Below, piece after piece: positions 2,561 through 33,529 of a stretch of 64,000 nt of DNA. The DNA comes from an uncultured Algibacter sp. (GTDB taxonomy: Bacteria; Bacteroidota; Bacteroidia; Flavobacteriales; Flavobacteriaceae): positions 186,001 through 250,000 of the forward strand of contig NZ_CANKXK010000002.1 in NCBI RefSeq assembly GCF_947487605.1. Reading direction: 5' to 3'. Below the pieces are notes generated by a model, which saw only the letters and a list, made by a program, of their open reading frames with translations, was not told the origin of the DNA and searched no databases. How positions within the stretch are numbered: the stretch's first letter is position 1; each line of letters opens with the position of its first letter. The translations under genes were made by a program, and so were the position numbers.

Positions 2561-2580
2561 TTTATTCTGTAATTATTATA

Positions 2581-4008: not shown

Positions 4009-4032
4009 GAATTAGTATTAGTTAGTCTATAC

Positions 4033-4944: not shown

Positions 4945-5014
4945 GCTTTTCTTGTTTATTTATTCAATTTAAAAACCAACTATTTAACTACTTTTTGTAA
5001 AAAACTATGAGCAT

Positions 5015-5629: not shown

Positions 5630-5676
5630 ATTATTATTTTTTTAGTTATATAAATTCACTTAACAATTCAAGATTG

Positions 5677-7107: not shown

Positions 7108-7137
7108 AATTTTATTTTTTTAGTTAGTTAGGTTAGT

Positions 7138-8649: not shown

Positions 8650-8652
8650 TTT

Positions 8653-9951: not shown

Positions 9952-9969
9952 AATTAATAATTTAACTAA

Positions 9970-11133
9970 TTACTGTGCTAACGGAGGAACAAGAGCCTCC
10001 AATAGTAAATCTTCTTTAACACCCATAAACGTTTTAGATATAGGTTGTCCGTCTCTAGTTAAGCCTTTAAACACACCTTTGTCAACTAAATCCCAAATAG
10101 CATATTTTGCTTCTCCTTTAAGGTTTATTAATCCGAAATGATTTTCAGAACCTTTTTCGTTTTCTGCATCCTTCCATTGTTCATCAAAAGCCTCGAAATA
10201 AAAACAAGTCACTTTTTCTTTATTACTCCAATCTCTAATGAGCTTAAAATACTTTCCAGACTTATACTCGTCAGCAGCTTTAGATCCATCGGCTCCATAA
10301 GAATCATTAGAAATTGTTGCCCAACCCGTTTCTCCGATATGAATAGGCTTATCTACTCCTAAGCTTTTAACATAGTTTGTAACATCCTCATATTGCTTTG
10401 TAGCAAAGTTTAAAGCGCGTTGCATACTAGACTCCATTTTCTGATTATTGGACAACCCGATTTCATTATTAGGAACCAACCAAAAGGCAGGATTATAGTG
10501 AGAGTTATGCATTGGGTATGTATGCATAGAGATATAATCTACTGCCTTAATTAGGTTAGTTAAGTCTTCACAGTGATAACTCGGATCGCCAGCGCCCCAT
10601 GATGAAAAATCATCGGAACTTGTAATCCATAAGTCTTTTGAAAGCGCTCCTTTATGTTTTAATTCTTGTAAATGATTTACCCATTTTAAAATTACATTAG
10701 GACGCACAAAATAACTTGTTGCCCAACGTACCATAGCTTCATTACCAACCGCTATAATTTTAACAATGTCTGGATACTGTTTAGCCAAAGCTACTGCTCG
10801 ATTAATTTCTCCAGCATTCTGTTCGCTTTCAACTTCATGATTAGGTTCTAATCCTGTCCATGCATTTTTGCAATCAATCCAAGCGCCTAACATGACATAC
10901 ATTTCGAAAGAAGTATTTTCTTTTTTTAACTCCGTTATAGCTTTTAACACATTTGATGCCTGAGCTAATTGAACATTATATGTTCTTAATATTTTAATCC
11001 CCATTGCAGCAAGGATTTTCATATCTTCCTTTAACTGCTTTATTGTAGGTTGATCATCACGCGTTTTACTACGGTAACCTCCATAAGAAATAGCTTGGTA
11101 TTCTGGATTTCCTAATATTTCGGCTGCTGTCAT
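9970..11133 (-). CDS. Cytoplasmic GH17-type beta-glucanase
   Basis: A 387-residue protein beginning MTAAEILGNPEY, with no signal sequence, so it is predicted to be cytoplasmic. The catalytic motifs AVGNEAM (about residue 130) and IGETGWAT (about residue 268) match those of the adjacent lipoprotein paralogue, and the two share ILGNP at the start of the domain and GLTR-GPI-KT near the end. It lies 5 bp downstream of the GH149-type phosphorylase, so the two are probably made together. It could shorten oligosaccharides for the phosphorylase or clear residual disaccharides. The exact specificity is unknown. Confidence 0.8.
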   Translation of the reverse strand: MTAAEILGNPEYQAISYGGYRSKTRDDQPTIKQLKEDMKILAAMGIKILRTYNVQLAQASNVLKAITELKKENTSFEMYVMLGAWIDCKNAWTGLEPNHEVESEQNAGEINRAVALAKQYPDIVKIIAVGNEAMVRWATSYFVRPNVILKWVNHLQELKHKGALSKDLWITSSDDFSSWGAGDPSYHCEDLTNLIKAVDYISMHTYPMHNSHYNPAFWLVPNNEIGLSNNQKMESSMQRALNFATKQYEDVTNYVKSLGVDKPIHIGETGWATISNDSYGADGSKAADEYKSGKYFKLIRDWSNKEKVTCFYFEAFDEQWKDAENEKGSENHFGLINLKGEAKYAIWDLVDKGVFKGLTRDGQPISKTFMGVKEDLLLEALVPPLAQ

Positions 11134-11138
11134 TTAAT

Positions 11139-14100
11139 CTACTTGTTTACTGAAACTATAATTTGATTTACTGCTCCTTTTCTTTCAAATATTGAACTCG
11201 AAGTTTCTACATCTAAGCTCGAACTGTCTATCTTTTTAATGTTTCCATTATTATAAATAATTTCTACACCCCTATCTGAGGCTTTTTTATAAATAATGGG
11301 TACTTGGCAATAGGTAAAACCAAGTGTATCATTATGCAAATGAATCTCTTGCGATTCACCTTGAGCATTAGTTAATTTAAATGTTGAAGGCGTGTTTAAA
11401 AATTCTTTTGTTTGAAGTAAACTTGGATTGAAAATTAACTTTCCATCTTCTACAAAGACCCCTAATTCACCAAAACGACTCAAAATGTCTTCCTTAACCT
11501 GCCCTGTCATTCCTGGTTGCTGAGCGCCTTTGGTTGCTGGTGTATGCGAATACGGGTCTGTTGGGAAAGCACCGTAAAGCTCAGGTGATTTATGCACGCC
11601 TATGCCAGCATTTATTTCGTAATAATGATCCAACAGTTTCCCAATTATTGCTTCGCTTTCTCCAGTATTAATTGCTAACAAACAGTTTTCTTGCACAGCG
11701 AGTAATAGCTTTGAAACCATGTGCCAATAAATGGATCCAAGACCTTCATAGCCAAAGAATGTTCCTGAGCGACCTGTAAATGATTTGTGGTCGAAAATAT
11801 CCTCAAAAATTTGAAGCACTTGTTCTTCTTCCAAAGCAATTAAGTTATCGTATTTCGAGTCTAAATTATCTAATGCCTGTTTTAAACTACTCGCGTTGTT
11901 GAAATTGCTATTAAAATGATAGTCTCCTTTAATGTCTTGCTCTACAATATGACGATTTCCATCTGCTACAAGTTGTTTAAGAAGGTTCGAGTTTTCAAGT
12001 TTTTCTTTCGGAATATTATTCTTTTTTGTGAACCTTGGCAGGTCTTTATCTGGATATAAAATATAGCTGTATTGGTCGTCTCTAAAAAGTGCGCTGTTTT
12101 TGAGTCCATCTAACAAACTTAAGGCTTGAGTAGGAGAGAGGTAGCCCGCACTTAATGCAGCCACTTGGCCTTCCAACATTTCGCTTAAGTAGGAAATGGA
12201 CACTTCTGTATCACTTTCAACGGTCATTAAGTTATAAGCATGATACATACTATCGTCACGCTTATTAGCATCAATACTTTGCTCTAAATACGCCTTAGTT
12301 ACCTCAATAAACTGAGCAACATCTTTAAGAGCTATTGACGATTTTCTATTTTTAAATCCGTTGTTATAAATAGTGGTTCGATAATCGCTACCCGCTTTAC
12401 CTAAACCATCTAATACTGTTTTTCGGTCTGTATCTGAAATAGCTCCAGATAATATATGTGCATTATTATTCAAGGTATTCACGATGCTATCAAAAAACGT
12501 CTTTAGTTCTTCTGAAATCTCTACGTTATCAAGATTAGACTTCGCAACTACTTTTTCAAAGAAATCTAAAAATCTATATAAATAGTAAAGCGTTACCATA
12601 GACACCCCATTCCCAACAAGGGCGTTATTAGCGTCGTTCCATTCTGGACGTTGCGTGTTTAACCAAATACCACCTTCTGGAATAAAGTTTGATACTTTAG
12701 AAAGTACTGTTGCCAGTAATTTTTCAATAAGATTAACACGATAAATAGCATTGTTCTTATCCATTAATAAGGCGCCATCTACACCAATTTCAGTTCTTCT
12801 TTCATTTATTTTATGGTCTAATTCATGATTAAAATCAATCGTATCTTTAGGGTTTTTTAAGGTATCTTCATAACTTTTAATCACATATGGCACATTTGCA
12901 TAAACAAATAGGTCTTGATTAAATCGCTTTTCTAACGCTCTTGGGTAGTGGTCTTCTATGAATTCTAAGAACTTAAGCAAGTATATTATTTGATGATCTC
13001 CCCAATACCCAATGTAAGACCATGGATCGTTTTCTTCAATCACTTCCCAATCGAAACCGCCTTTAGTCACACGATACGGATTGTAGCCCTCAAAAGTTGT
13101 GGCATTTAAAAACTTATGAATCATGCCTTCTATATACTCGGGATAGGCATGTGCTAACGCTTCCCAATTTTGGAAAATATCTCTCCAGTTTCCTTCGTAA
13201 TCCAAAACCTTAGAGCCATCTATTTCACTTCTTGTATTAATAGAAAACTTATTCCATGGTCTGCTTGGATCGCCATGTCGTCTACTGAATTTTAATGGTA
13301 GATACTCAAAACATAACCGTTGAAAATCTTTATTCTCATCATCTTCAGCAAGTTTTTGAATTTCTTCCAATGTAAAGGTGTCTCCTAATCTATTTAAAAG
13401 GGAAACCTTTTCTTTAAAAACCTCTTTATTTGCTTTGGAAATATATTTAACAAAATCACCCTTTTCAATAGTATAAGCATCGTCAAAAATACCACCTCGC
13501 ATGATATTAAACAGCGTATTTGAGAAATGCCTCATATTTGTTAGCGGATCTTCTGTAAGCTGTAAACCATCTGAAGCTGCTGTTAATTCTATAAGATTTT
13601 TTGTTCCTAATTCAATATCTTCTTGGATTAATTGCTGAATTTTATTGTTTGCTTTTATAAGTTCAGAAATTTTCACTACATCTGAAATGGACTGATTTAC
13701 ATTCATAACAAACATCCAGTCTTCTTTTGCTCCAGCAAAAATTTCTATATCTGTTGAAACAAAGTAAGCCCCTTTTTCAGCTTTAATATCAACCTCTTGC
13801 TTTACTGTTTCACCTCTTCTAAAATTATCTAACTGTAATGATGACAATAAATAAGTTGCATTAGTTATGCCCGTAGACCAAACAATATTGGACTTTAAAG
13901 ATTCACTTGGCTCCGCTTTATCAACAATAACGGCACTTAAGGCATAAATACCCAAACCAACCTCTTCTTGTAGCTCGTTTCTCTTGTAGGCGTCTACTAA
14001 ATTGCTTCTACTATTCTGTAAATCGGAAGTTACGTTGCTAGGTAGTATGTTTTGAACACCATCCAAAATCCTAATCTGAACTGAAACATCTGATTCGTTA

Positions 14101-14594
14101 ATTAAAGTCGACTTCTTAACAAACCCAAATTTATTACTTGAGTTCCACTCGTAGCGATAGCTTAATGCTAAATCTAAATTCTTTTCTTCAAAGACAATTT
14201 TATTCCCGTAGATGTTTTTATAAAGATTTATTTCCGTTTTATAGATCCCCATTTGTCGAATTGAAAACGGTTCCCAAAGCTTAATACTCCCTTCTTTTTT
14301 AACTTGAAAAACAGCTTTACACCCTGTGGTTTCTGCCATTTCATTAATTTTATCATCTGTATAATAAGGAAATAGTGAAGATTCCGCATTTTTTCTTCCT
14401 GCGGTTAAGCCTCCATTACTTGAGATAAACATCCAATGATTAGAATCGCTTACAATGCTCATAAAAAATGGGCGCATCAAGTTGCTATTGGAAATCTTAT
14501 AGAATCGTTCTCCGTTAAGATTTACTAATTTTCCCTTTACCTCTCTCATTTGGTTAGAAAATTTTGGTTTGTCTTTAAAAATTGTTGTACTCAT
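11139..14594 (-). CDS. GH149-type beta-1,3-glucan phosphorylase
   Basis: A 1,151-residue protein without a signal peptide, predicted to act in the cytoplasm. Its size and motifs resemble GH149 phosphorylases, which cleave beta-1,3-glucan oligosaccharides with phosphate to give alpha-glucose-1-phosphate. The segment PEWNDANNALVG near residue 650 corresponds to the WND catalytic region of the related GH94 phosphorylases. QPGMTGQVKED (about residue 1,028) and the N-terminal SSNGGLTAGR fit the same superfamily. Its place between GH16, GH17 and GH30 genes agrees with a beta-1,3-glucan substrate. GH161 is an alternative, but the length favours GH149. It starts only 13 nt after a strong intrinsic terminator, so its expression may be reduced relative to upstream surface proteins. 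Confidence 0.75.
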   Translation of the reverse strand: MSTTIFKDKPKFSNQMREVKGKLVNLNGERFYKISNSNLMRPFFMSIVSDSNHWMFISSNGGLTAGRKNAESSLFPYYTDDKINEMAETTGCKAVFQVKKEGSIKLWEPFSIRQMGIYKTEINLYKNIYGNKIVFEEKNLDLALSYRYEWNSSNKFGFVKKSTLINESDVSVQIRILDGVQNILPSNVTSDLQNSRSNLVDAYKRNELQEEVGLGIYALSAVIVDKAEPSESLKSNIVWSTGITNATYLLSSLQLDNFRRGETVKQEVDIKAEKGAYFVSTDIEIFAGAKEDWMFVMNVNQSISDVVKISELIKANNKIQQLIQEDIELGTKNLIELTAASDGLQLTEDPLTNMRHFSNTLFNIMRGGIFDDAYTIEKGDFVKYISKANKEVFKEKVSLLNRLGDTFTLEEIQKLAEDDENKDFQRLCFEYLPLKFSRRHGDPSRPWNKFSINTRSEIDGSKVLDYEGNWRDIFQNWEALAHAYPEYIEGMIHKFLNATTFEGYNPYRVTKGGFDWEVIEENDPWSYIGYWGDHQIIYLLKFLEFIEDHYPRALEKRFNQDLFVYANVPYVIKSYEDTLKNPKDTIDFNHELDHKINERRTEIGVDGALLMDKNNAIYRVNLIEKLLATVLSKVSNFIPEGGIWLNTQRPEWNDANNALVGNGVSMVTLYYLYRFLDFFEKVVAKSNLDNVEISEELKTFFDSIVNTLNNNAHILSGAISDTDRKTVLDGLGKAGSDYRTTIYNNGFKNRKSSIALKDVAQFIEVTKAYLEQSIDANKRDDSMYHAYNLMTVESDTEVSISYLSEMLEGQVAALSAGYLSPTQALSLLDGLKNSALFRDDQYSYILYPDKDLPRFTKKNNIPKEKLENSNLLKQLVADGNRHIVEQDIKGDYHFNSNFNNASSLKQALDNLDSKYDNLIALEEEQVLQIFEDIFDHKSFTGRSGTFFGYEGLGSIYWHMVSKLLLAVQENCLLAINTGESEAIIGKLLDHYYEINAGIGVHKSPELYGAFPTDPYSHTPATKGAQQPGMTGQVKEDILSRFGELGVFVEDGKLIFNPSLLQTKEFLNTPSTFKLTNAQGESQEIHLHNDTLGFTYCQVPIIYKKASDRGVEIIYNNGNIKKIDSSSLDVETSSSIFERKGAVNQIIVSVNK

Positions 14595-16884: not shown

Positions 16885-17742
16885 TTACTGTTTGTATACT
16901 CGTACATAATCCACAAGCATTGTTTGTGGAAATACTGTTTCGTCGTTAGGAGCACCCGGTAAAGCACCGCCTACAGCCATATTTAATATGATATGAAAAG
17001 GTCCTCTGTTAAACACCCATTCTCCAGGAACATCTTCTGGCGTAATTTGGCTATATAAATCGCCATCTACATACCAATTGATATAATCTGGACCCCATTC
17101 TATTCCAAAAATGTGGAAACCAGCATCAAACCTGTCCCCTTCTAATTCATAAGATTTACTTATTGATTCACCTCCAGAGTATCCCGGTCCATGTACTGTG
17201 CCAAATACTGTAGTAGGTTCATCTCCTACGTATTCCATAATGTCTATTTCGCCAATTTGTGGCCAAATCTCTGTACCATTGGAATCATCGCCTAAAATCC
17301 AAAACGCTGGCCAAATACCTTTCCCATTAGGTAATTTAATTCGTGCTTCAAAACGTCCATACGTTTGCTCGAAATTTCCTTTAGTAAGTAATCTTGCTGA
17401 AGTATAGCTTGATCCTTGAAATTGCTCCTCTTTGGCAGTTATAATCAACACACCATTTTGAACTGTTACATTTTCTGGGCGATCTGTGTAGTATTGCAAC
17501 TCATTATTACCCCACCCGGCTGGTAAACCATTTGCTGTGCCGTCTCCAATATCATAATTCCAAATAGCACTATTAGGCGCACCGTCTACATCAAACTCAT
17601 CTTGCATAACAAGATTGCTAAAAGTGGCAACCGTTTGTGTTTCATCTGTTTCACAACTATAGATAACTAAAACTGCTACCAATAGAAAAGACATAAACAG
17701 CAAGGTTTTTTCTTTTATTTTATATTTTATTGTTTTATTCAT
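16885..17742 (-). CDS. GH16 laminarinase lipoprotein (endo-beta-1,3-glucanase)
   Basis: A 285-residue protein with a long N-region and a lipoprotein-like signal ending in IYSCETD. The single catalytic domain contains GEIDIMEYVG near residue 164, which is the GH16 ExDxxE active-site motif in the form typical of laminarinases. Flanking signatures are GKGIWPAFWILG and FHIILNMAVGG. It should cut internal beta-1,3 (or mixed) linkages at the cell surface and release oligosaccharides for SusCD. Unlike many marine laminarinases it has no attached binding modules. The neighbouring lipoproteins on both sides provide such modules as separate chains. Confidence 0.92.
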   Translation of the reverse strand: MNKTIKYKIKEKTLLFMSFLLVAVLVIYSCETDETQTVATFSNLVMQDEFDVDGAPNSAIWNYDIGDGTANGLPAGWGNNELQYYTDRPENVTVQNGVLIITAKEEQFQGSSYTSARLLTKGNFEQTYGRFEARIKLPNGKGIWPAFWILGDDSNGTEIWPQIGEIDIMEYVGDEPTTVFGTVHGPGYSGGESISKSYELEGDRFDAGFHIFGIEWGPDYINWYVDGDLYSQITPEDVPGEWVFNRGPFHIILNMAVGGALPGAPNDETVFPQTMLVDYVRVYKQ

Positions 17743-17775: not shown

Positions 17776-19227
17776 TTATTCTTTGTAGAAGTAAATGTTA
17801 TCTAAAATGAAGTCTGGTCCTCCAGCTAATATTAATGCTCCAAGATTATTTCTTTGCGTGGCTAAATCCCCATCTAATGGAATATCTATAGATGTCCAAG
17901 CTCCAACAGTTAAACCAGTAGCATCAAATCTTTTATCCTTATCATCTCCATCTGGGAAACCAGTAAAAATATTTGTTTCTATTTCACCGTTAGCTCCAAC
18001 ATCTCTAATTTGTATGTTGATATTGGTTCCCGGTTCCTCTGTATAAATATCTACATGCATGTGTGTTAGAGTTGTGGCGTCTACCGGATTATTAAAGATA
18101 ATTCCTGTAAAATTATTATTGGCATAAACTTGAACCAACTGTCCTGGAGGTCCAACCTCTGTAACCTCTGTGGTTGAACCGCCAAAACCAGGGTTAAAAC
18201 TACTTTCAGTGACCACTGTATAAGCATCACTATATATAGATTTAACATTGGCAGCTGGTCTCATTGGCACTGGAGCTAGAGGCAACGCACCGCTAGAGGT
18301 TACGGTTAAAGAACCTTCTGCTTCTACACCTGTTAGCTCTGCTGTTATTTCAGTCGCTCCTTCTCCTATAACATTAGCAATACCAAATTGGTTTACAATA
18401 GCAACGTCTGTGTTTGAGGAAACAAAATTGAAATAAGCAGGAGCCCCACTAACTTCTATATTTTCCCCAGCAACATCATATTTTATTGATAGACCTTGCG
18501 ATACAATATTTATTTCGCTTCCAGTAAACGTTTGTTGCGCTATATTTTGACCATTGAAGATGATTGGTCTTGGTTGAGAAACCGTTCCTAGTTTTTCAAA
18601 TTTTAACTCATCGATCCAGAATGTCCAAGCTATTTCATTTCCATTAGGGCCATCTCCAAGAGGGTCAAAACCGCCCGCAGCAAAGAAGAACATTCCTGTT
18701 TCTTGAATTAACTTTGAAGCATCTGGTATTGGAATGACATACTTCTTCCATCCAGATGTCATTTGTACAGAGGTAGCAACATCGTAAGAAGGCTCACCTT
18801 CCAATGTATCAAAATCGGTTCCAAAACCAACTGCTATGGTTCCAGATGTAGTTCCTTGTGCCCAAAACGTCAGTGCGTCGTATCCTGTAAGGTTTCTTCC
18901 TGCTCCACGGTCTTCAAAAACCCCTCCTATAAAGTTTCCATTAGGGTCATTAGAAGAAGGTACATCAATTCTGATAGACGTAGTTCCTTCGTAGAATGTA
19001 TTATTATCCACTCCAAAACCGCTAGTATTTGCGCCCGCTGCCGGATCAAAAGATCTAAAAAATTGATCAGTAAGCCCTACTGGAGCATCTATAAAAACTT
19101 CTGCTGTTGTTGGAAATGTGGCAAATGTTGCTTCATCTGAAAGTTCTCTATCACAACTTAAAACAAGAGCAAATACACATCCTAAAAAGAATGTTAATTT
19201 TATATATGTGAGTTTTATATTTTTCAT
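17776..19227 (-). CDS. Modular glycan-binding lipoprotein with Ig-like domain
   Basis: The ORF track starts at 19299, but that start overlaps the upstream gene. The ATG at 19227 begins a proper lipoprotein signal (MKNIKL to VLSCDRE) and leaves a 7-bp gap, giving 483 residues. Domains seen: an N-terminal jelly-roll module (about 30-200, ending in FWIDELKFEKLG), a bacterial Ig-like Big_2-type domain (about 220-305, with SSNTDVAIVNQFGIANVIGEG), and a C-terminal module (about 325-483, ending in FILDNIYFYKE). Such C-terminal modules often accompany GH16 enzymes in Bacteroidetes. No catalytic motif is visible, so a surface binding role is likely. It lies between the fusion glycosidase and GH16. Confidence 0.78.
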   Translation of the reverse strand: MKNIKLTYIKLTFFLGCVFALVLSCDRELSDEATFATFPTTAEVFIDAPVGLTDQFFRSFDPAAGANTSGFGVDNNTFYEGTTSIRIDVPSSNDPNGNFIGGVFEDRGAGRNLTGYDALTFWAQGTTSGTIAVGFGTDFDTLEGEPSYDVATSVQMTSGWKKYVIPIPDASKLIQETGMFFFAAGGFDPLGDGPNGNEIAWTFWIDELKFEKLGTVSQPRPIIFNGQNIAQQTFTGSEINIVSQGLSIKYDVAGENIEVSGAPAYFNFVSSNTDVAIVNQFGIANVIGEGATEITAELTGVEAEGSLTVTSSGALPLAPVPMRPAANVKSIYSDAYTVVTESSFNPGFGGSTTEVTEVGPPGQLVQVYANNNFTGIIFNNPVDATTLTHMHVDIYTEEPGTNINIQIRDVGANGEIETNIFTGFPDGDDKDKRFDATGLTVGAWTSIDIPLDGDLATQRNNLGALILAGGPDFILDNIYFYKE

Positions 19228-19234
19228 TTTCGTC

Positions 19235-22200
19235 TTATTTTCCAATGTTAATATGTATGTATGTTCTAATCTCCCACTCGTTTCCATCATCGAATCCAAC
19301 AGGGCTTAAAACCGGAAGTGCTGGAACCGTATTTGGTGGAACTGCAGTAGGTGCATATCTTGGCGAGAACTCATCAAGTGATCTCCATATACCGCGAATA
19401 CCAATTTTGGTCGCTGGCATAATAAACCAATCTGGTTTGCTAATTGAGGTGGAAATATCAATCATGTTCTGCACAGGGAATGTTAAGTTGAAATCACGAT
19501 GGTAATCGAAAGGTCCCCAATCGTTAATTTTACAACTATATTCTACTTTCCACTTTTTGTAAATCATTTTAATATCACCTCCAAAGCGATCTATAGTTCT
19601 ATCACTATCACCTAAGGCCTGTGCTGTACCACCATAGAAATTACCAATAATTCCAATATCTGGACTTATTTTAGATACCATTCGTGAGCTTATCTCCCAT
19701 AAATCTTGTGCCGGAGCTGCCTGTGGAAACGCAAAAAACTGTCGATTGGCCAAAAACCCAATATGTGCATCTTGTGCTGTTGGATGGTGTCTGTAAACAA
19801 AACCAAGATTGAAAGCAAACTTAGCATCTTCCGCTCTATCGTTATCCCATTCGTAGAACCATGATCCTGGTGTTGGGTCGAAGGTTAAAAGTAACTCTCC
19901 TGCTGTTGTCTCTCTATTTCCTCTTACTGCAAAAGGGTCGTCAATAAAGTTTCTTAATCTTCCTGGAGCAGAAACATCACTTGGCATTGGGTCTACCAAA
20001 GGTTTTTGCCAAAGGAAGTTTGGCGCTATTTGCCAATTACCTGTTAAAAATGTGAAACCTGTAAGGATATTGGTTTGGTTTCCGCTTCCAGAATCCTTTA
20101 GTTTCCAACCAGTAAATGTTCTTGTTGCATCTGCTCCTCCGCCTGCAACTAAGCCCATATAAGCCGCTTGCCCATACCAGTTGAACTTTCCTCCTTCATA
20201 AGTTATCTTTGCTTTCCCACCCCAGTTATCGTCTGAGTTTATTTTATCTTGATACACCACATAGTTGCCTGGGCCTCCCGTGACATCTTGGAACGTACTC
20301 CCATTTAAAGGGCTTCCTCCCCAAATACCACCAAGCGAAACACCAAATTTGCCAAATTCCTTTTCAATAGCTATAGTTGCTCGTTCTGTTGGCCATGGTG
20401 GAATCACACCTGATCTAACCTGATTTGCGTCCAAAATTCGACGACCGTTTTCGTCAAAACTTAACGAAGTATTTAAGTCTCTGTGATAAATCCCTGTGAT
20501 ATCCCAGTGTTTAAAATGTGTACGGTATTTTAACAGAACCGTTGGATTTGCACCCCACCATAATTGAGGACCAAAGGCCGCTTTTAAGCCTTTAAAAGCA
20601 CGCTTTCCGTCTATTTCCACACCTAAAATCTCACCGTTATAAATATCTAAATTAGGACCGTAATTAGCTTCTGGGTATAAGCCAAAGAAATCCCCTTCAT
20701 AACCCCAATGGTAATGACCTGTTCGGTAAAACCCTCTAACATCGGCATGTTTTGTTTGCCAATCAAATTCGGCATTGTATACTCTTAAGCGATTGTTATC
20801 TGTAATGACAACTTCTTCACCATTACTATTAACCACACTAACAGGGCGCCCCACATTTTCATAGAAAATTTCATTTATGGGATTCTGAGCCACATTGCCC
20901 AGAATGTTGAAGTTGACCTCGGCTGTCATATTTGACGTTGGCTTACCTTCAACACCTACAAAATAAGATTGCATGTGATCGAAACCAAGCTGATTAGGAA
21001 ATGTATTTGCATCAGGACCCACATTGTCTGGGGTAGTAATTAAGCTCCCTCCTGTGTTAAATGTTGTAAACTCTGCTCTAAGATTGCTTAGTTTAATTTT
21101 TGCGCCATCCTTAGCATCAAGAGCTGCTTTATCACCTCGGGCTCTTAAAACGGCATCCATTAATTCAATACCATTAAAATGATTTTGAATAAAATCGGCA
21201 TCAACGCCTTCTCTGTAAGGATCTAATTGATGTGCTTCTTTTAAGGCATAATATGCTGCACGCGGATATAAATCGTATAAACCTCTTGAACTTGTTGGGC
21301 CTTTGGCACAAATACCAAACCACTCCTCATTCATGTTATTTTCACCTGGCGCCAAATCAATACCATATCCTCCGTTAGCCCATGATGCATTATTATCGTG
21401 TACATCTGCATTTTCTCTTTTATCAAACCCATATTTCCACCAGCCATCACTAAACTGAAAAGTAAAACCACCAAGGGAATTTTGTGCTTTTCCTAAACCG
21501 GCTGCATTTGCATAAATCTCTCTCCAATTCTCAACCATATAATAAGCCTGTGCTTTTTGATCTTCCTTGTCCTCAACAGCATTATAAGCATCTGCACCAA
21601 ATTCTGTAAACATGATAGGCTTGTTAAGCTTCTTTTTTACTACATCGAACATATCGGTAAAAGAGGCTCCACGATACGAGTTAACCCCATAGATATCTAC
21701 ATCCTTACATTCTTCTGCAACGATGTCAATAAATAGTACATCTCCATTACATATAGCAACAGGGTGTGAAGGATCCATTTCCTTAATCATTTTAGACACC
21801 TCGTTCATCAACCTATACATGGGCCGCCCTCGACTTTCCCCTATAAAATTTATTCGACCTTCATCATCTGGAAAATCTTCGGTTTCTGCACCTGCCCAGA
21901 ACAAGCCATAATTGTTTTCGTTTCCTAATAAGTAGAGTAGTAGTCCTGGTGTGTTTTTATAACCTTCAACCAAATTCTTCATGTCTGTTACTAATTGATC
22001 TTTAGTAACGGGGTCGTCGTAAATGGTAACAGGTGTCCAAACCCCATTCAACGTTAATCCGTAACGACCAAACGAATGGTTAAGCATGGTATAAATACCA
22101 TATTTTTCGTAGATGTATTTAATCCATCTTGCTGGCACACCAGTATATTGACGAATTACATTTACATTCATATTTTTTAAAAGCGACATTTCGGTATCTA

Positions 22201-22423
22201 ATCCCGCTTTTATAACATCGTCTGATTTGTTCCAAAAATCAGCATTTACAGTATTGGTTCCAATAGGGATATAATCCCAGTTCATACCATTAATCATGAA
22301 GTCTTTGCCATCGACAACCAATTTCTGGCCTTCTTCATTATTAACAACCTCTACCTTACTTGCCTGAGCAAAAACAGCACATGTGAACAAGAAGAAAAAG
22401 AATCTTAGAAATTTGTTTTTCAT
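19235..22423 (-). CDS. TIM-barrel glycosidase fused to a predicted outer-membrane beta-barrel
   Basis: The ORF track begins at 22474. The ATG at 22423 starts a clear signal peptide (MKNKFLRFF to AVFAQA), leaving 1,062 residues. The first part (about 25-430) is a clan GH-A-like TIM barrel resembling GH2/GH5 domains, with a probable acid/base Glu in LLGNENN (about 168) and a probable nucleophile Glu in FTEFGAD (about 273). From about residue 450 to the end the sequence shows many short amphipathic strands with alternating hydrophobic and aromatic residues and polar turns, as in porin-like barrels. This would tether the enzyme directly to the outer membrane. The family assignment of each half is uncertain. 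It has its own promoter region upstream with operator-like repeats. Confidence 0.72.
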   Translation of the reverse strand: MKNKFLRFFFFLFTCAVFAQASKVEVVNNEEGQKLVVDGKDFMINGMNWDYIPIGTNTVNADFWNKSDDVIKAGLDTEMSLLKNMNVNVIRQYTGVPARWIKYIYEKYGIYTMLNHSFGRYGLTLNGVWTPVTIYDDPVTKDQLVTDMKNLVEGYKNTPGLLLYLLGNENNYGLFWAGAETEDFPDDEGRINFIGESRGRPMYRLMNEVSKMIKEMDPSHPVAICNGDVLFIDIVAEECKDVDIYGVNSYRGASFTDMFDVVKKKLNKPIMFTEFGADAYNAVEDKEDQKAQAYYMVENWREIYANAAGLGKAQNSLGGFTFQFSDGWWKYGFDKRENADVHDNNASWANGGYGIDLAPGENNMNEEWFGICAKGPTSSRGLYDLYPRAAYYALKEAHQLDPYREGVDADFIQNHFNGIELMDAVLRARGDKAALDAKDGAKIKLSNLRAEFTTFNTGGSLITTPDNVGPDANTFPNQLGFDHMQSYFVGVEGKPTSNMTAEVNFNILGNVAQNPINEIFYENVGRPVSVVNSNGEEVVITDNNRLRVYNAEFDWQTKHADVRGFYRTGHYHWGYEGDFFGLYPEANYGPNLDIYNGEILGVEIDGKRAFKGLKAAFGPQLWWGANPTVLLKYRTHFKHWDITGIYHRDLNTSLSFDENGRRILDANQVRSGVIPPWPTERATIAIEKEFGKFGVSLGGIWGGSPLNGSTFQDVTGGPGNYVVYQDKINSDDNWGGKAKITYEGGKFNWYGQAAYMGLVAGGGADATRTFTGWKLKDSGSGNQTNILTGFTFLTGNWQIAPNFLWQKPLVDPMPSDVSAPGRLRNFIDDPFAVRGNRETTAGELLLTFDPTPGSWFYEWDNDRAEDAKFAFNLGFVYRHHPTAQDAHIGFLANRQFFAFPQAAPAQDLWEISSRMVSKISPDIGIIGNFYGGTAQALGDSDRTIDRFGGDIKMIYKKWKVEYSCKINDWGPFDYHRDFNLTFPVQNMIDISTSISKPDWFIMPATKIGIRGIWRSLDEFSPRYAPTAVPPNTVPALPVLSPVGFDDGNEWEIRTYIHINIGK

Positions 22424-22548: not shown

Positions 22549-22566
22549 CAACAAAAAACATACATC
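22549..22566 (-). promoter_or_regulatory. Conserved promoter/leader block A, fusion-gene copy
   Basis: The 18-nt plus-strand string CAACAAAAAACATACATC occurs here and, identically, at 30542-30559 upstream of susC. On the transcribed strand it contains TATGTTTT, one base from the TAnnTTTG -7 consensus, so it may include the core promoter. Flanking sequence (poly-A on one side, AAGnAATnC on the other) is also similar at both places. Confidence 0.6.
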
Positions 22567-22670
22567 GCAAAAAAAGAGACGGTAAATTGTTAGAACCCTA
22601 ATAAAAACACTATTTGTTAGTTACTTGATTTATAAAAACACTACATGCTTTAGAAGCAAAAAGCACGTTT

Positions 22671-22689
22671 TGTATTGGTGTTGTATAGG
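22671..22689 (-). promoter_or_regulatory. Tandem operator-like boxes upstream of the fusion glycosidase
   Basis: TGTATTGG at 22671 and TGTATAGG at 22682 are direct repeats with an 11-bp period. The same arrangement occurs upstream of susC and upstream of the regulator gene. They lie about 250 bp before the ATG at 22423. Confidence 0.55.
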
Positions 22690-25955: not shown

Positions 25956-27425
25956 TTAGTAATTAGGGTTTTGCTCCCATCTATTACCTGCTAATTGAAT
26001 TTCAATTAATGGTATTGGAAATACTTCGTGCTTTCCAGACACAAATCCGTCTATTTCATTTGCAGCTCTTCCTGTGCGGACTAAATCAAAGAAACGATGG
26101 CCTTCACCAACTAATTCTACACGACGTTCTTTATATATATCATTGGTTAAATTAGATCCTGAAGTAGAAACAGCTTCAAGCATAGCTCTTGTTCTTACTC
26201 TATTTAGATAAGTTCTAGCTCTTTCGTCGCTAATACTCCCTCTATTTAATGCCTCTGCAGCCATTAACAAAACGTCTGCAAAACGAATAGCTCTATAATT
26301 ATTGGGGTTTGTTAAGTTGGCGTCTCCCGTATTTAGGTCGCCTTGGCGCGAAATGTATTTTCTATTAAAATACCCCGTATGTTCATTGCCTTTCCCAAAA
26401 GTAGCGCCAGTTTCTAGTGCCCATGCCTCAATATCTAATATGGAATACTCTAAACGGATATCTCCGTCTTCGAATGCGTTAAACGCCTCCTGCGTTGGTA
26501 CATTGAAACTAAATCCAGATTCGAATTCTGGACCATCATATTTTCGTATGCCATTAAAACCTACAGCAACATTACCTTCGCTACATTGTAAACACTCAAA
26601 ACTTGCTCCTTCTTCATCAGTATATTGTACCTCGAAAACAGATTCTATGTTATTTTCATTGTTGTTTTCAAACATAGTTTTTGCTAGTTCTGATGACAAT
26701 AAATCCATAGGTATTGAGGGTGCGTTGCCAATTAAATCCTCAAGTACTGTTCCTGCCTCGGTAAATTTATCTTGGTATAAATAAGCTTTACCCAACAACG
26801 CTTGTGCTGATGCCTTAGTTACTCTACCTTTTTGAGCTTGCGTATAAGGTAAGTTTGACACTGCAAATTTTAAATCGTCTTCTATTAGAGCATAAACATC
26901 TGCTTTAGGCGATTTATCAATGGTGGTTTCTTCTCCAAATTGAACTCTTTTATCAATAATTAATGGAATGTCACCAAACCATTTTACTAATTCAAAATAA
27001 TAATAGGCTCTTAAAAACCTTGTTTGAGCTAGCACATTATTTTTATTAGGAAAATCTGTTTTGTCTTGAAACTCCATTATATAATTAGTTCTACTAACTC
27101 CACCATACATCCACGTCCAGATATCTCTTAATTGTGCATTTATTGGAGTGTGAATCATATCGTCTATTTCTTGAATTCCAGGAACATCTGTTGCGCTCTC
27201 ACCGCCTGCAAGTGTATTGTCTGAAGCAATCTCACCAAGCATAACATTTAGGTAGGTTGATTGCAACACATCATACGCACCAATTAAAGCATTTTGATAA
27301 TCTTCTTCTGAATTGAAGAATTCATCGGATATCTCGTCTGGAGATGCTACATCTACAAAATCGTCACTACATGAAAATGTAAGAACAAAGACGATAAGTA
27401 TATATTTTAGTTTTAAATTTTTCAT
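25956..27425 (-). CDS. SusD-like outer-membrane glycan-binding lipoprotein
   Basis: A 489-residue RagB/SusD-family lipoprotein with a signal ending in LTFSCSDD. Family hallmarks are the early SPDEISDEFFNSEEDYQNALIG-like helix, the TRFLRAYYYFELVKWFGDIPL segment (shown here as two overlapping motifs of the family), and the C-terminal RRVELVGEGHRFFDLVR followed by PIPLIEI. SusD lids the SusC channel and captures glycan at the surface. It lies 8 bp downstream of susC, as usual. A CLQCSEG Cys pair is present within the domain. Substrate is inferred as beta-1,3-glucan from the adjacent enzymes. Confidence 0.95.
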   Translation of the reverse strand: MKNLKLKYILIVFVLTFSCSDDFVDVASPDEISDEFFNSEEDYQNALIGAYDVLQSTYLNVMLGEIASDNTLAGGESATDVPGIQEIDDMIHTPINAQLRDIWTWMYGGVSRTNYIMEFQDKTDFPNKNNVLAQTRFLRAYYYFELVKWFGDIPLIIDKRVQFGEETTIDKSPKADVYALIEDDLKFAVSNLPYTQAQKGRVTKASAQALLGKAYLYQDKFTEAGTVLEDLIGNAPSIPMDLLSSELAKTMFENNNENNIESVFEVQYTDEEGASFECLQCSEGNVAVGFNGIRKYDGPEFESGFSFNVPTQEAFNAFEDGDIRLEYSILDIEAWALETGATFGKGNEHTGYFNRKYISRQGDLNTGDANLTNPNNYRAIRFADVLLMAAEALNRGSISDERARTYLNRVRTRAMLEAVSTSGSNLTNDIYKERRVELVGEGHRFFDLVRTGRAANEIDGFVSGKHEVFPIPLIEIQLAGNRWEQNPNY

Positions 27426-27433
27426 AACTAATA

Positions 27434-30400
27434 TTAAAATTTTAAGTTAATTCCTAATAAGAATGTTTGTGCGCTAGGATAAAAACCTTGATCTACACCG
27501 CCGCCAATTGGAGCACCTGATGATGCTGTTGGATCGTAACCTCTATATTCGGTTAAAGTCACCAAATTGCTTGCAGACACATATAACCTTAACTTACTTA
27601 TTTTAGAATTCTCCAGAGCTTTGTCTGAGAAATTATACCCCAATTGTACATTCTGTAATCGAACAAAAGACCCATCCTCTACAAAATAATCTGAAAACAA
27701 GGTGTTTGAAGTAGCCGCTGTTGTTACTCTAGGTGTGGTGTTTGTTGTGCCCTCACCGTTCCATCTATCTAAGAAATAAATAGGTTTATTTACCTTGTTT
27801 TGATTTCTTTCATAATTACGAACAATTTCATTTCCTAGAGAAGCAAATGCATAAGCAGCGAAATCGAAGTTTTTATAATCTAGCGAAATATTAAGACCCA
27901 TAGTGGCGTCTGGAATTGGATCTCCAAGGTATACCCTGTCGTCTGCATCTATTATATTATCACCATTTTGGTCAACAAAACTTAAATCTCCAATTTGAGG
28001 CGGGTTTTTTTCTGTTGGTACAGAGTTGTTAAAATCTTCTTGGTTTTGAATTACACCATTCGTTTGTAAACCATAGAAAAAGCCAATTGGAAACCCTGCT
28101 TCCATTCTTGATGGTCCAAATTCTTGACCTACTCCAAATGTACCTCCTTCAATAAAACCACCATCACTTGTTACTGAAACAACCTGATTGTCTATAGCTG
28201 TCACATTGTATTTAATGCTAAATTTAAAGTTGTCACTAAAATTATCTGAATAACCAATAGCAAACTCTAATCCTTTATTTTCAACTATTCCCGCATTAAC
28301 AAATGGAGATGCAGACCCTGGAGCAGAAGCCCCTAATATACCTGATACTTGCGGTTGTACTAACAAGTCTTCTGTTCTCTTGTTAAAATAATCTATCGTA
28401 ATATCTACCTTGTTGTTTAAAATTCGTGCATCTAATCCTATATCTAAAGTTTTTTGTTTTTCCCATTTAATTTCTGGGTTTGAAAGTCCGCCAATAGATG
28501 ATCCGAACACCACTTCATCGTTATTATCAAAGGTATAAGTAGCCTCCCCATTATTAAGTGATACAAATCCATAATCATCGATTCTGTCATTACCAAGAAC
28601 ACCATAAGAAGCTCTAAACTTTAATAAATCGAATACAGCGCTGTCTTTTAAGAAATCTTCATCTGAAACGACCCAACCAATAGATCCTGAAGGGAAAAAA
28701 CCAAACTTGTTTTCTGGTCCAAATTTTGTAGAACCATCACGACGAACCACGGCTGATAAAAGATATTTTCCTTTATAGTCATATTGAATTCGCGCGAAGT
28801 ATGATAACAATCTTGAATCGAAAATAGCATTTCTTCCCGTAGCTTGATTAATGTTTTCAATCTCAGAAGCTTCTTCAATAGAGGCGTTAATGATATTGTT
28901 GTCTATTATATTAAAACCCTTAAGTCCAGTAAATTCACCTGTTGTTTTAAAGACAGACATACCTAGTAAAACGTTAATCTTATGAGTGTCATTTAATAGG
29001 TTGTCATATTTAAGAAACGCATCGAACGTATAATCCCTAAAATAATCTAGTCCTTCAAAAACTTCGCTTCTGTCATTATTAAACACTTTGCCGCTACCAT
29101 AATCAACTTCAGGACTAAATACCTTTGATGACACTTCAGAATAATTAAACTGAATATTAGATTGTGCTGTAAAGTGCTCTAAGAAATTATAAGATAATCC
29201 TGCATTACCACTCAATCTAATAACTTTACCTCTATTGTAGGTGTTAGCCATCTGAGCTACTGGATTTATTACTTCATTGCCTAAGCCTTCTGCAATTGTA
29301 AACGCTCCAGTCTCATCTCTAACGCCTTTGGTTGGATCCATATTTAATGCATTAAATAGAATAGATCCAAGATCATTTTCGAGAAGATTTCTTTTATTCG
29401 TTCTCATTAAGGTTAAACCAGAAGTTAGCTTAAAGTTTTCAAGAAAATCTAGATTGTATGTTACTGCATTAGTAAAACGTGTAAAATTTGATTTGCTTCC
29501 CCCTACAATACCATCTTGAGTTAAAAATGAACCACTATAAGAGTATGATGATTTTTTACCACCTGCTTTAAATAAAATACTGTGATTTTGTATTGGTGCA
29601 CTTTCAAACACTTGGTCTTGCCAATCAGTTCCTTGCCCTAAAACAGATAAATCAGGAAAAGGAAGCGCGCTTCCCCCTGAAGCAAAAGCTTCATTTATAA
29701 TTACTGCATATTCTGTGGCATTAAGCACTGGTATTTTTCGTGTAGTTTCCTGAAAACCTCCATATGCATTATATTCTACCGTAAGAGGCATGTTTTGACG
29801 CCCTTTTTTAGTGGTTATTAAAATTACACCGTTTGCAGCTCTAACACCATAAATACCAGCAGTCGCATCTTTAAGAATGTTCATGCTTTCAATATCGCTA
29901 GGGTTAATAACACTTAAGTCCTCAATAACATTGCCATCAACAAGTATTAATGGTCGGCTATCTCCATTTGTAGACACCCCTCTAATACTAATAGTTGCTG
30001 CTCCACCTGGCGACCCTGACTGCTGAGTTATATTTACACCCGCAACCTGACCTTGTAATGCTTGTTCAACTCTAGTTGGTTTTAGCGCTTCAATAGTTTC
30101 TGCGCCAACTACAGATACAGCACCTGTAATCTCTTTTTTGGTTTGTGTACCATAACCAATAACAACAACTTCGTCTAGTTGCGCAAGGTCTTCTTCTAAT
30201 TGAATGGTTAATGTTGAGCTATCTGTTATCGCTTGCTCGTAGGTTGTATAACCTATATAACTGAAGGATAATATTGAGCCAATCTCAACATCTGAAATTG
30301 TAAAATTGCCGTCAAAATCTGTAACAGCTCCTTTACTTGTGTTTTTAACTATAATGTTTACTCCAGGAATAGGAAAACCTGTATTATCTTGAACAACCCC

Positions 30401-30475
30401 AGACACACTAACATTCTGTGCGCCTGAATATGTAATAAGAAAAAACATTAAGATTTTAAAAAATGTGTGTTTCAT
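27434..30475 (-). CDS. SusC-like TonB-dependent outer-membrane transporter
   Basis: A 1,013-residue protein with signal peptide (ending in TYSGAQN), a CarboxypepD_reg-like domain (about 22-95, with GVNIIVKNTSKGAVTDFDG), the plug domain (about 110-225, with ALQGQVAGVNITQQSG and the DATAGIYGVRAANGV motif), and a long beta-barrel ending in LLGINLKF with the usual terminal Phe. It imports oligosaccharides across the outer membrane, powered by TonB, together with the SusD partner. It is the first gene of its operon, with 240 bp of regulatory sequence to the regulator gene. Start ATG at 30475 fits the signal peptide. Confidence 0.96.
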   Translation of the reverse strand: MKHTFFKILMFFLITYSGAQNVSVSGVVQDNTGFPIPGVNIIVKNTSKGAVTDFDGNFTISDVEIGSILSFSYIGYTTYEQAITDSSTLTIQLEEDLAQLDEVVVIGYGTQTKKEITGAVSVVGAETIEALKPTRVEQALQGQVAGVNITQQSGSPGGAATISIRGVSTNGDSRPLILVDGNVIEDLSVINPSDIESMNILKDATAGIYGVRAANGVILITTKKGRQNMPLTVEYNAYGGFQETTRKIPVLNATEYAVIINEAFASGGSALPFPDLSVLGQGTDWQDQVFESAPIQNHSILFKAGGKKSSYSYSGSFLTQDGIVGGSKSNFTRFTNAVTYNLDFLENFKLTSGLTLMRTNKRNLLENDLGSILFNALNMDPTKGVRDETGAFTIAEGLGNEVINPVAQMANTYNRGKVIRLSGNAGLSYNFLEHFTAQSNIQFNYSEVSSKVFSPEVDYGSGKVFNNDRSEVFEGLDYFRDYTFDAFLKYDNLLNDTHKINVLLGMSVFKTTGEFTGLKGFNIIDNNIINASIEEASEIENINQATGRNAIFDSRLLSYFARIQYDYKGKYLLSAVVRRDGSTKFGPENKFGFFPSGSIGWVVSDEDFLKDSAVFDLLKFRASYGVLGNDRIDDYGFVSLNNGEATYTFDNNDEVVFGSSIGGLSNPEIKWEKQKTLDIGLDARILNNKVDITIDYFNKRTEDLLVQPQVSGILGASAPGSASPFVNAGIVENKGLEFAIGYSDNFSDNFKFSIKYNVTAIDNQVVSVTSDGGFIEGGTFGVGQEFGPSRMEAGFPIGFFYGLQTNGVIQNQEDFNNSVPTEKNPPQIGDLSFVDQNGDNIIDADDRVYLGDPIPDATMGLNISLDYKNFDFAAYAFASLGNEIVRNYERNQNKVNKPIYFLDRWNGEGTTNTTPRVTTAATSNTLFSDYFVEDGSFVRLQNVQLGYNFSDKALENSKISKLRLYVSASNLVTLTEYRGYDPTASSGAPIGGGVDQGFYPSAQTFLLGINLKF

Positions 30476-30541: not shown

Positions 30542-30559
30542 CAACAAAAAACATACATC
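30542..30559 (-). promoter_or_regulatory. Conserved promoter/leader block A, susC copy
   Basis: Identical over 18 nt to 22549-22566 and 67 nt upstream of the susC start. An AACCTAATA block 46 nt further upstream is matched by AACCCTAATA at the equivalent distance at the other locus, so the whole leader architecture is shared. Confidence 0.6.
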
Positions 30560-30715: not shown

Positions 30716-33529
30716 TTATATTTCTAAAATATAGTCCGTTAGGCTAGATTTATGACTTAGGTCTATTTTTTTTCTTAGTCTATAGCGTTTAACCTCTACG
30801 CTTCTAGGAGATATGTTAAGAAGTGGTGCTATTTCTTTAGATGATAAATTCAATCTTAAGTAAGCACATAACCTAAGGTCGTTTGAAGTTAGGTTAGGAT
30901 GTAGTTCTTTTATTTTTTTAAGAAAATCTTTATCTGCATTGTTAAAAGCCTCTTGGAATAAATTCCAGTCATCATTATTATTTAGATTTCTATCTATTAT
31001 TTTAACAATCTGTTTTAGGCTTCTTGTTCCATCTGAATCCATTAATTCTTTTTTAATAGATCCTAAAAACTCATTCTTCTTTATTAGATTCATGGTTGAA
31101 ATACCCAATTCTCTGTTTTTATTCTCTATGTCTTCTCTAAGTTTTTCATTTCTAAAACGCATGAGTTGTTGCTTGTTTTCTAACTCCTTCAATTCTAACT
31201 CCCTACTAGCCTTTTGCATTAATCTTTTACGTTGGTTTCTATAATAGGTTGTGTAAATTTTGTGTGTTAAAAATGAAACTACAATAACACCTAATAGGTA
31301 TAGCCCAATGGCAACATTTGATAAAAACCATGGTCTATTGATACTAAAAGAATAGCTTTCTGTGTTTAAAGTTGTTTCATTGCCTACGCGACCATTTACA
31401 AAAAAAGTATACTCTCCATAGGGTAAGTTTTCAAACAGCACACTACCTGTTGTTGTCCACTCACTCCAAGATTCATAAATTCCTTCTAGTTTGTAACGAT
31501 ATTCTGGTTTTTGGGTTTTTGAAAATTCTGAAATACTATAAGAAAACTTTAAATTATTTTCATTATTCTTAAGCTCTACGTTTTTTGTTAAATCGACTAA
31601 ACTACTTTCGCTATCACTTTTAAGCTTACTAACGGTTATTTGATTGATATTTATTTTGTGTTTATGCTTATTATTTTTGTTTAAATTAAAAATAATATAG
31701 CCCGCAGAAGACCCTAATAAAAATTTTTCGTCTTCTACATGTGTTACACTTTCGTATCCTATTACATCTTTCCTAATATCTACAGGAAAAGGAATTCTAA
31801 TAATCTTTTTTTCTCCTATTAGATTAGACTCGGTTAAAAAATTTATTCCTTTAGAAGAAAAACTCCATAATTTTTTAGTTTTTTCTTCCCAAACTAATTT
31901 TCCAGATGTAAAATGTTCTTTATCTATAAGCCTACTTAAAATCGTGTCTTTTTTAAATTGCTTTGAAACATAATCAAACTTAAATATTCCTTTTCTATTT
32001 GTGTAAAGTAAATCTTTATTGCTTTTTATTAAACTAGAATACAACCCTTTTTCTAATTGCTTGTCTTGATTATAAGTTTCTACCTTAGTTAATTCTTTAT
32101 CTACCTTTAACTTAAAAAGCCCCTTATATTCATGATTAACATAAATTTCTTCTTTGTTTATAAATTCGAAAAAACGGCTTGAAATATTAAAACCTTCTAG
32201 TTTATTTCTCAATTTCCATTTTCCGTCTAGTTTATGAAGTATATGTAAGCCGTTATAATTTCCTTGAATTAACAAATTTGTGTCGCTACTCAATTTTTTA
32301 ATTAGCCACGCACCTTGAATATCTACAATCTTTTCGGCTTGCGTATCATTAATAACGAAAGTCCCTGAATTATGTCCGCAAAAAAGAACCCCATCAATTA
32401 CCTTTAAAAACCAAACTTGACCTTGAGTATTTTCAATAAAATTAAACTTATTTTTACTATATAAATCTCTATAAAACAACCCTTGATTTGTTCCTAAGTA
32501 TAAAACACCATTATTAATTACTGAAGTATAAACACTCCCAATATCTCCATTAGTGTCATAATAAATATTATATGGTGATTTAATATTTATACAATTAATC
32601 CCATTATCTAATCCTAACCAAATATTATTATCTAGATCCTCATGTAAAAATAAAACGGTATTGTTGCTTAAACCATCAGACTGATTTATTTTATAATTAA
32701 TTGTACCATCCGTTTTAAGGTGTATTATTCCATCAGAAATGGTTCCTAACATAAAACTTCGGTCTCTCATCTCAATAGCACTAAATACACTTACTTTTGC
32801 TAAATCTGACTTAGCTGATATATCCCATGGTGATAAACTATTGTCTGTAAGATTATAAAAACCACTGTCTTGAGTTAATATTAAAATACTATTAGTGTGG
32901 TTAAAAATATTAACTATTACATTGTTTCTTATTACCTCATCTTCTGAAACCAAAATTTCTGTTCCGTTTTCAATTCGATATAAGCCATTATTTAAGCTTT
33001 GGAAAAAAAACATTTCATCAACCTTAAATAATCTGGAAATTTTAGTTTTAGAATTTACAACGCTGTAAACTTTTGTTTCTTTATTATAAATATGAATTCT
33101 GTCTAATGATTGAAAAAGTATCCAGTTTTCATGATTTAAGATATTCCAAAACTCTTCATCTTCGAGAAATTTAATATCAAGTACATCTGAAAGAGAGGTA
33201 TAATTTAACACACCATAATTATCTTTTTTCCAGTAACCAAATTCATGATAACTACCTGTGAAGATTAAATTATCTATTACTTTTACTGCACGAATAATCG
33301 TTTTATTTGGTGAATTATATAAGGTCCAATTTGCACCGTTAAATTCTAAAAGGCCTTTATTATTAGCAGCATAAATATATCGATCCTTTGATTGAGAAAT
33401 AGACCAATTTTGAGATTCTCCATGATAATCGCTAGGCAAAAAAACATTTATAGGGAATCTTTCTTGTGTATGTAGTATAAGTGAAACACACGCAAATAAC
33501 CAAAACAGATGTCGGTGTATAGGTTTCAA
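30716..33529 (-). CDS. Membrane-spanning propeller/Y_Y_Y/LuxR-HTH transcriptional regulator
   Basis: A 937-residue protein with an N-terminal signal (MKPIHRHLFWLFA), a large periplasmic region of beta-propeller repeats (about 25-630), a triple-tyrosine (Y_Y_Y) domain (about 655-720, ending before RPWFLS), one transmembrane segment (about 736-757), a cytoplasmic coiled coil (about 760-815) and a C-terminal LuxR/GerE-like helix-turn-helix (about 880-925, LTSNDLRLCAYLRL and SSKEIAPLLNISPRSVEVKR). No histidine kinase or receiver domain is present, so sensing and DNA binding are in one chain. It resembles SusR-type regulators in logic. It lies next to susC and probably senses imported glucan fragments in the periplasm and controls this locus. 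Confidence 0.9.
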   Translation of the reverse strand: MKPIHRHLFWLFACVSLILHTQERFPINVFLPSDYHGESQNWSISQSKDRYIYAANNKGLLEFNGANWTLYNSPNKTIIRAVKVIDNLIFTGSYHEFGYWKKDNYGVLNYTSLSDVLDIKFLEDEEFWNILNHENWILFQSLDRIHIYNKETKVYSVVNSKTKISRLFKVDEMFFFQSLNNGLYRIENGTEILVSEDEVIRNNVIVNIFNHTNSILILTQDSGFYNLTDNSLSPWDISAKSDLAKVSVFSAIEMRDRSFMLGTISDGIIHLKTDGTINYKINQSDGLSNNTVLFLHEDLDNNIWLGLDNGINCINIKSPYNIYYDTNGDIGSVYTSVINNGVLYLGTNQGLFYRDLYSKNKFNFIENTQGQVWFLKVIDGVLFCGHNSGTFVINDTQAEKIVDIQGAWLIKKLSSDTNLLIQGNYNGLHILHKLDGKWKLRNKLEGFNISSRFFEFINKEEIYVNHEYKGLFKLKVDKELTKVETYNQDKQLEKGLYSSLIKSNKDLLYTNRKGIFKFDYVSKQFKKDTILSRLIDKEHFTSGKLVWEEKTKKLWSFSSKGINFLTESNLIGEKKIIRIPFPVDIRKDVIGYESVTHVEDEKFLLGSSAGYIIFNLNKNNKHKHKININQITVSKLKSDSESSLVDLTKNVELKNNENNLKFSYSISEFSKTQKPEYRYKLEGIYESWSEWTTTGSVLFENLPYGEYTFFVNGRVGNETTLNTESYSFSINRPWFLSNVAIGLYLLGVIVVSFLTHKIYTTYYRNQRKRLMQKASRELELKELENKQQLMRFRNEKLREDIENKNRELGISTMNLIKKNEFLGSIKKELMDSDGTRSLKQIVKIIDRNLNNNDDWNLFQEAFNNADKDFLKKIKELHPNLTSNDLRLCAYLRLNLSSKEIAPLLNISPRSVEVKRYRLRKKIDLSHKSSLTDYILEI

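Follow-up and report, generated by a model that had tools for sequence, protein, structure and literature searches.

RESULTS AND DISCUSSION

A fusion gene in a laminarin locus

The window analyzed here is a 64,000-nucleotide stretch from an uncultured Algibacter species, a member of the Flavobacteriaceae (assembly GCF_947487605.1, contig NZ_CANKXK010000002.1, positions 186,001 to 250,000), and coordinates given without a locus or genome name refer to it. The gene of interest, at 19235-22423, is present in one copy in the source genome. An initial annotation, made from the sequence without database searches, had read it as a single uninterrupted frame, and both the coordinates and the open frame (1,062 codons followed by a stop) held up. 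However, the strand had been missed. The gene is encoded on the minus strand; the plus-strand reading of the same interval is full of stops and is not coding. The N terminus of the predicted protein (about residues 1-22, MKNKFLRFFFFLFTCAVFAQA; 22358-22423) is a signal peptide, recognized from the sequence in the initial annotation as well as here, and the structural model has an N-terminal helix at residues 2-17. The signal peptide is followed by a clan GH-A TIM-barrel catalytic domain (residues 23 to about 430; 21134-22357) and by a predicted outer-membrane beta-barrel (residues 444-1061; 19241-21094) that ends in RTYIHINIGK. It is nearly certain that an enzyme and an outer-membrane-type barrel are joined in this one protein.

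The neighboring genes are consistent with the beta-1,3-glucan locus that had been proposed. The gene for a 483-amino-acid lipoprotein (17776-19227, minus strand) starts 7 nt past the stop codon of the fusion. Downstream of this pair are minus-strand genes for a GH16 laminarinase-like lipoprotein (16885-17742; Pfam match, with PDB laminarinases at an E value of ~1e-75) and a GH149 beta-1,3-oligosaccharide phosphorylase (11139-14594; match to 6hq6 with 1614 bits), as well as GH17, GH30, and MFS genes. An upstream operon on the same strand encodes a SusD/SusC pair (25956-30475; SusD at 25956-27425 and SusC at 27434-30475), and a Y_Y_Y/LuxR-type regulator is encoded at 30716-33529, also on the minus strand (Pfam matches in each case). 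The gene order fusion, lipoprotein, GH16, GH149, GH17 recurs in distant families. A Muricauda laminarin PUL has been described as containing a "GH2 beta-glycosidase," without reference to any barrel (PMC13188888); judging from position and cluster content, this "GH2" is apparently the fusion gene. Within 1631-11133 the window has an operon that contains four GH17 genes along with two MFS carriers, in which some of the GH17 proteins have no obvious signal peptide and are likely cytoplasmic and others have a lipobox. In genome G112 a Porin_O_P family gene (locus L204, 7370-8428) is immediately upstream of the fusion.

The suggestion that the fusion has its own operator-bearing promoter was borne out by an 18-nt word, GATGTATGTTTTTTGTTG (22549-22566, minus strand), which is found in identical form upstream of SusC (30542-30559) and is kept in most of the approximately 15 flavobacterial relatives that were aligned. 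The same alignment revealed a second conserved block, CCTATACAACACCAATACAA (22668-22689, minus strand), which is CACCTATACAATACCACAACAT in relatives. The GATGTATGTTTTTTGTTG and CACCTATACAATACCACAACAT blocks apparently form a pair of TGTTGxGGT half-sites that point in opposite directions and are separated by about 100 nt. A homologue of the Y_Y_Y/LuxR-type regulator was near the fusion in 60 of 109 homologous loci, and upstream of it in the loci displayed. A regulator of this type likely reads the shared promoter words.

The catalytic domain is remotely similar to GH158 endo-laminarinases

In Pfam, residues 33-283 fall into the GH2 TIM-barrel family PF02836 (E, 8e-9; 35.5 bits versus a cut-off of 21). 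The best match in a profile search was BuGH158 (6pal; E, 2.3e-9), with GH2 at 7e-8 for the same profile. Foldseek with the full-length model also placed the BuGH158 endo-laminarinase first (E, 4.7e-12); next came GH158(Pro) 9oro, and then GH2 enzymes and TonB-type barrels. The clan GH-A-like TIM barrel of the initial annotation was recovered, but its kinship to GH158 had not been spotted. The two glutamates previously singled out as probable catalytic residues, E169 in GNENN (21917-21919; predicted acid/base) and E274 in TEFGAD (21602-21604; predicted nucleophile), did not vary among 68 homologues. They align with E137 and E220 of BuGH158, in an arrangement with an N-E acid/base after strand 4 and a glutamate nucleophile after strand 7. 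Replacement of E137 and E220 with alanine abolished BuGH158 activity (PMC7157763).

Membership in GH2 was rejected because, despite a Pfam match above the cut-off, the domain layout is wrong. The N-terminal, sugar-binding jelly-roll and the Ig domains of GH2 enzymes are absent, and the TIM domain comes directly after the signal peptide. The positions of the N-E pair and the nucleophile, and the location in a beta-1,3-glucan locus, are features in common with GH158. However, BuGH158 carries a C-terminal Ig-like domain on its TIM barrel, where the fusion has a linker and 24 strands. From the conserved positions and the alignments, we infer that the fused domain is a catalytic GH-A enzyme nearest to the GH158 endo-laminarinases; its similarity to GH158 is remote, and it probably represents a family of its own in clan GH-A.

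That remote similarity, close in strength to the similarity to GH2, is compatible with other activities. The domain might be a glucan transglycosylase, a beta-1,6 branch-specific enzyme, or a binding domain rather than an endo-beta-1,3-glucanase, with the barrel serving as a specific porin for the product. For example, MlGH17B, from the same type of loci, is a transglycosylase (PMC13188888). We consider this unlikely, because the whole catalytic apparatus is invariant and the fusion is consistently found inside beta-1,3-glucan operons.

The C-terminal half is a predicted outer-membrane-type barrel with no Pfam family

The C-terminal half had been described as about 600 residues of porin-like amphipathic strands with aromatic girdles. 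When it was modeled alone with AF2, 24 antiparallel strands were obtained with moderate confidence (pTM 0.73, mean pLDDT 73), and the full-protein model contained the same 24 strands. Short turns (after strands 2, 4, 8, 10, 12, and so on) alternate with long loops, a strand order that puts both predicted barrel termini in the periplasm. The facing alternation of the strands was 2.75, compared with 1.45 (standard deviation, 0.22) for shuffled strands and a maximum of 2.27 over 2000 shuffles. The inside of the barrel is polar, and I, F, W, Y, and V face outward. The aromatic girdle is weak, with W and Y accounting for 0.12, 0.06, and 0.21 of outward positions in the periplasmic, middle, and extracellular thirds, respectively. 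All of the top 50 Foldseek matches to the C-terminal half were outer-membrane barrels, with TM-scores of only ~0.2 to 0.4; TonB receptors (BtuB-type leading), MOMP, AlgE, OccK, maltoporin, and PapC were represented. The predicted fold class is therefore clear. With a model of only moderate confidence and low TM-scores, it is uncertain to which family the barrel belongs, how many strands it has, and how wide its pore is.

The initial annotation had pointed to a soluble beta-sandwich array as the outcome that would count against a barrel. The moderate AF2 confidence and the lack of any solved sequence relative are what could be said for a soluble all-beta array. It is nevertheless highly improbable when the uniform fold matches, the alternation of long loops and short turns across 24 strands, and the polar-in, aromatic-out facing are considered.

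No sequence relative of the barrel was found in the PDB at E values up to 10, and neither Pfam nor PHROGs yielded a match. The C-terminal half defines an outer-membrane protein family of ~620 residues that has no Pfam model. Pore-facing residues are better conserved than lipid-facing residues (P = 4e-4; ~46 effective sequences), and the loops between strands 5 and 6 and between strands 21 and 22 are among the most conserved parts of the barrel. The plug domain PF07715 had no Pfam match in the fusion protein, whereas the neighboring SusC does match. Therefore, identity as a TonB receptor was rejected.

The fusion is old, and the barrel has probably been lost repeatedly

There are at least 583 homologues in the genome collection; the best 80 are all full length, 68 to 94% identical, and nearly all from Flavobacteriaceae. 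Kordia algicida OT-1 (locus L071), a flavobacterium that can be cultured, also has the gene. Of 396 genomes sampled across the phylum, a match was present in 45 and the full fusion in 33; none of the 45 had the two halves as separate intact genes. This result disposes of the hypothesis, raised in the initial annotation as a threat to the fusion, that homologues are split into two genes. A barrel-only profile search found no intact barrel outside an enzyme-bearing frame. The fusion is real and old, not a chance join.

Although the fusion proposal stands, forms in which the enzyme stands alone had been missed. The standalone enzyme is a secreted protein or a likely lipoprotein, often with a lipobox-like N terminus, and is encoded beside GH149, GH17, and GH30 genes. 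A maximum-likelihood tree of the enzyme domains intermingles fused and lone forms, with 8 changes between them, at least 6 of which are forced by supported branches. A single origin of the standalone form was rejected, as 0% of bootstrap trees had one change. In genome G119 (locus L120), behind the lone enzyme frame, there is a remnant that covers ~60 residues from the start of the barrel and contains a stop (G119:C314:3453-3629), a trace of barrel loss. Because the tree mixes fused and lone forms and this remnant exists, we infer a direction of change from fused to lone, with repeated loss of an ancestral barrel as the simplest history. In genome G235 (locus L122, 1271-3225) the fusion gene is split by stops into several frames, apparently reflecting a decaying copy or assembly errors. 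Genome G419 has a standalone enzyme plus a fused copy (C219:5254-6456 and C41:22684-23886).

A lipoprotein partner travels with the barrel

The lipoprotein encoded next to the fusion has CBM-like and Big-type Ig domains (weak CBM_11 match) and a lipobox, LSC|DRE. The N terminus after the lipobox is of the CER(D/E) type, and the protein is predicted to be on the cell surface. Its gene directly follows the fusion in 100 of the 101 fused loci with enough flank and was at none of the 29 testable standalone-enzyme loci. In the sole exception, G478, the contig ends 2.4 kb further on, and that stretch holds no partner; in G144 a diverged partner-like gene is upstream of the fusion instead. This distribution indicates that the partner belongs with the barrel, not with the enzyme, and points to a working barrel-lipoprotein complex. 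The fusion had been proposed as a component of the glucan system without recognition of this partner. In seven loci from several distant families (L206, L207, L208, L209, L214, L215, and L219) the partner is longer (~630 to 850 amino acids), and in some of these long partners the query aligns with a second stretch as well, an indication of additional binding domains.

Comparison with described systems

The SusC/SusD and BtuB/BtuG systems, in which a TonB-dependent barrel is paired with a surface lipoprotein lid, resemble the fusion and its partner in that a barrel has a dedicated, co-encoded lipoprotein. BtuB-type structures also lead the matches to the C-terminal half. However, the fusion has no plug, has 24 predicted strands (moderate confidence) rather than 22, and carries an N-terminal enzyme, and its partner is unrelated to SusD. 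Type V autotransporters, including the esterase and patatin types, have an N-terminal enzyme and a C-terminal barrel in one chain. They differ from the fusion, which has ~24 strands over ~620 residues rather than 12 to 16 (12 in type Va), a conserved pore, and a fixed lipoprotein partner; no sequence relationship was found.

A polysaccharide hydrolase is also paired with an outer-membrane barrel in the PgaA/PgaB, PelA/PelB, and AlgE exporters, but there the components are encoded by separate genes, belong to other families, and function in export, whereas the fusion is associated with degradation. The presence of AlgE among the fold matches, and the periplasmic hydrolases that accompany exopolysaccharide exporters (PMC9384988), might suggest a role of the barrel in exporting or remodeling a beta-glucan made by the cell itself, in the manner of PgaA/PgaB or AlgE. 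There is very little prospect of this, because no synthase is near any examined locus and all the neighbors are degradative, with import carriers.

No description of a glycosidase-barrel fusion was found in the literature searched, which comprised the main texts of openly readable papers. The parts are of known kinds (a clan GH-A enzyme, an outer-membrane barrel, and a surface lipoprotein), but for the combination, the barrel family, and the fixed partner, the libraries and papers searched contained no matching system.

Possible function in glucan import

The reading that we favor, with a probability a little short of even, is that the fusion is an endo-beta-1,3-glucanase joined to an outer-membrane channel and acts together with the lipoprotein whose gene starts 7 nt downstream. 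The CBM-like lipoprotein would bind laminarin at the cell surface, and the glucan, or fragments of it released by GH16, would enter the wide barrel. The GH158-like domain, tethered at the periplasmic start of strand 1, would cut the emerging chain, and cutting would make passive entry one-way. Periplasmic GH17 and GH30 enzymes, an MFS carrier, and cytoplasmic GH149 would complete the breakdown. Catalysis by the enzyme, its position in the periplasm, and transport through the barrel are each predictions of this scheme.

The main alternative is that the barrel serves for anchoring or self-export, in the manner of an autotransporter, and displays the glucanase outside the cell beside the CBM lipoprotein, with the products entering via SusC/SusD or other TonB receptors. 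The two readings differ in the membrane side on which the enzyme resides. Surface display, which we regard as possible but on balance doubtful, would be in accordance with the type V order of an N-terminal enzyme and a C-terminal barrel, with the short helices ahead of strand 1, and with the fact that the first cuts by PULs are usually made at the surface; BuGH158 is itself a predicted cell-surface enzyme (PMC7157763). SusC/SusD genes also adjoin the fusion in the window and in all five sampled Flavobacteriaceae. However, a classical autotransporter has half the number of strands predicted here. For display a lipoprotein anchor would suffice, and such an anchor seems to be used by the standalone forms. 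There is no SusC/SusD to take up the product at several loci and in three genomes, and the pore side is strongly conserved.

Import through the barrel is favored over display because the fold and the GH-A catalytic pair are accompanied by a strand order that places both termini in the periplasm, and because the pore side and loops 5-6 and 21-22 are conserved beyond the needs of an inert anchor. It is further favored because the barrel was never found apart from the enzyme, because the partner tracks the barrel rather than the enzyme, and because standalone enzymes with a lipobox need no barrel for anchoring. The moderate confidence of the model, with its low TM-scores, and the presence of SusC/SusD in the window weaken the case.

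Loci and genomes without SusC/SusD

The proposed role in a glucan system was supported, but loci without SusC/SusD had been missed in the initial annotation. SusC/SusD is next door in the window and likewise in 5 of 5 Flavobacteriaceae of the SusD sample. Outside the Flavobacteriaceae, none of 18 fused loci with a located SusD had it within 25 kb, a count made from listed positions, with those of three further genomes unlisted and the single weak SusD-like hits of G191 not fully placed. Three genomes that are 99 to 100% complete (G256, G051, and G066) had no SusD match with two Pfam families, and each carries the fusion, partner, GH16, and MFS genes together in one operon. The retention of the operon core (fusion, lipoprotein, GH16, GH149, and GH17) in distant families without adjoining SusC/SusD, and the presence of the module in these three genomes, also favor import through the barrel. 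Because the module is found in laminarin operons without SusC/SusD, the barrel is the best candidate for the entry point at such loci, short of proof.

The SusD-less genomes have 16 to 36 TonB plug matches elsewhere, the nearest ~20 kb from the module, and thus other import routes exist. Furthermore, family f30 has the standalone enzyme in genomes without barrel, partner, or SusD, which suggests that the locus can work without the barrel. Both observations weaken the case for import through the barrel. A one-for-one replacement of SusC/SusD by the barrel was rejected as not clean: both systems occur in the window and in the sampled Flavobacteriaceae, and f30 combines a standalone enzyme with the absence of SusD.

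A stronger proposal is that the GH158-like enzyme, the plug-less ~24-strand barrel, and the CBM lipoprotein are together a complete glucan importer, independent of TonB and SusC/SusD, in which periplasmic hydrolysis makes diffusion one-way. We put this forward tentatively, as conceivable but rather less than probable. If it is true, many Bacteroidota families would share a new class of machinery for polysaccharide uptake, and the chance of such a new class is a real one. Laminarin is among the most abundant marine energy stores, and Bacteroidota are described as importing it via SusC/SusD. The module in loci without SusC/SusD would add a different entry route and would account for laminarin operons with seemingly missing parts. 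A question raised by the module is whether cutting drives transport.

In families whose sampled genomes gave no SusD, a gene for a protein of ~420 amino acids is conserved between the partner and GH16 (L208, 14759-16030; L214, 16048-17313; L215, 5272-6519), and it has no match to genes in the window.
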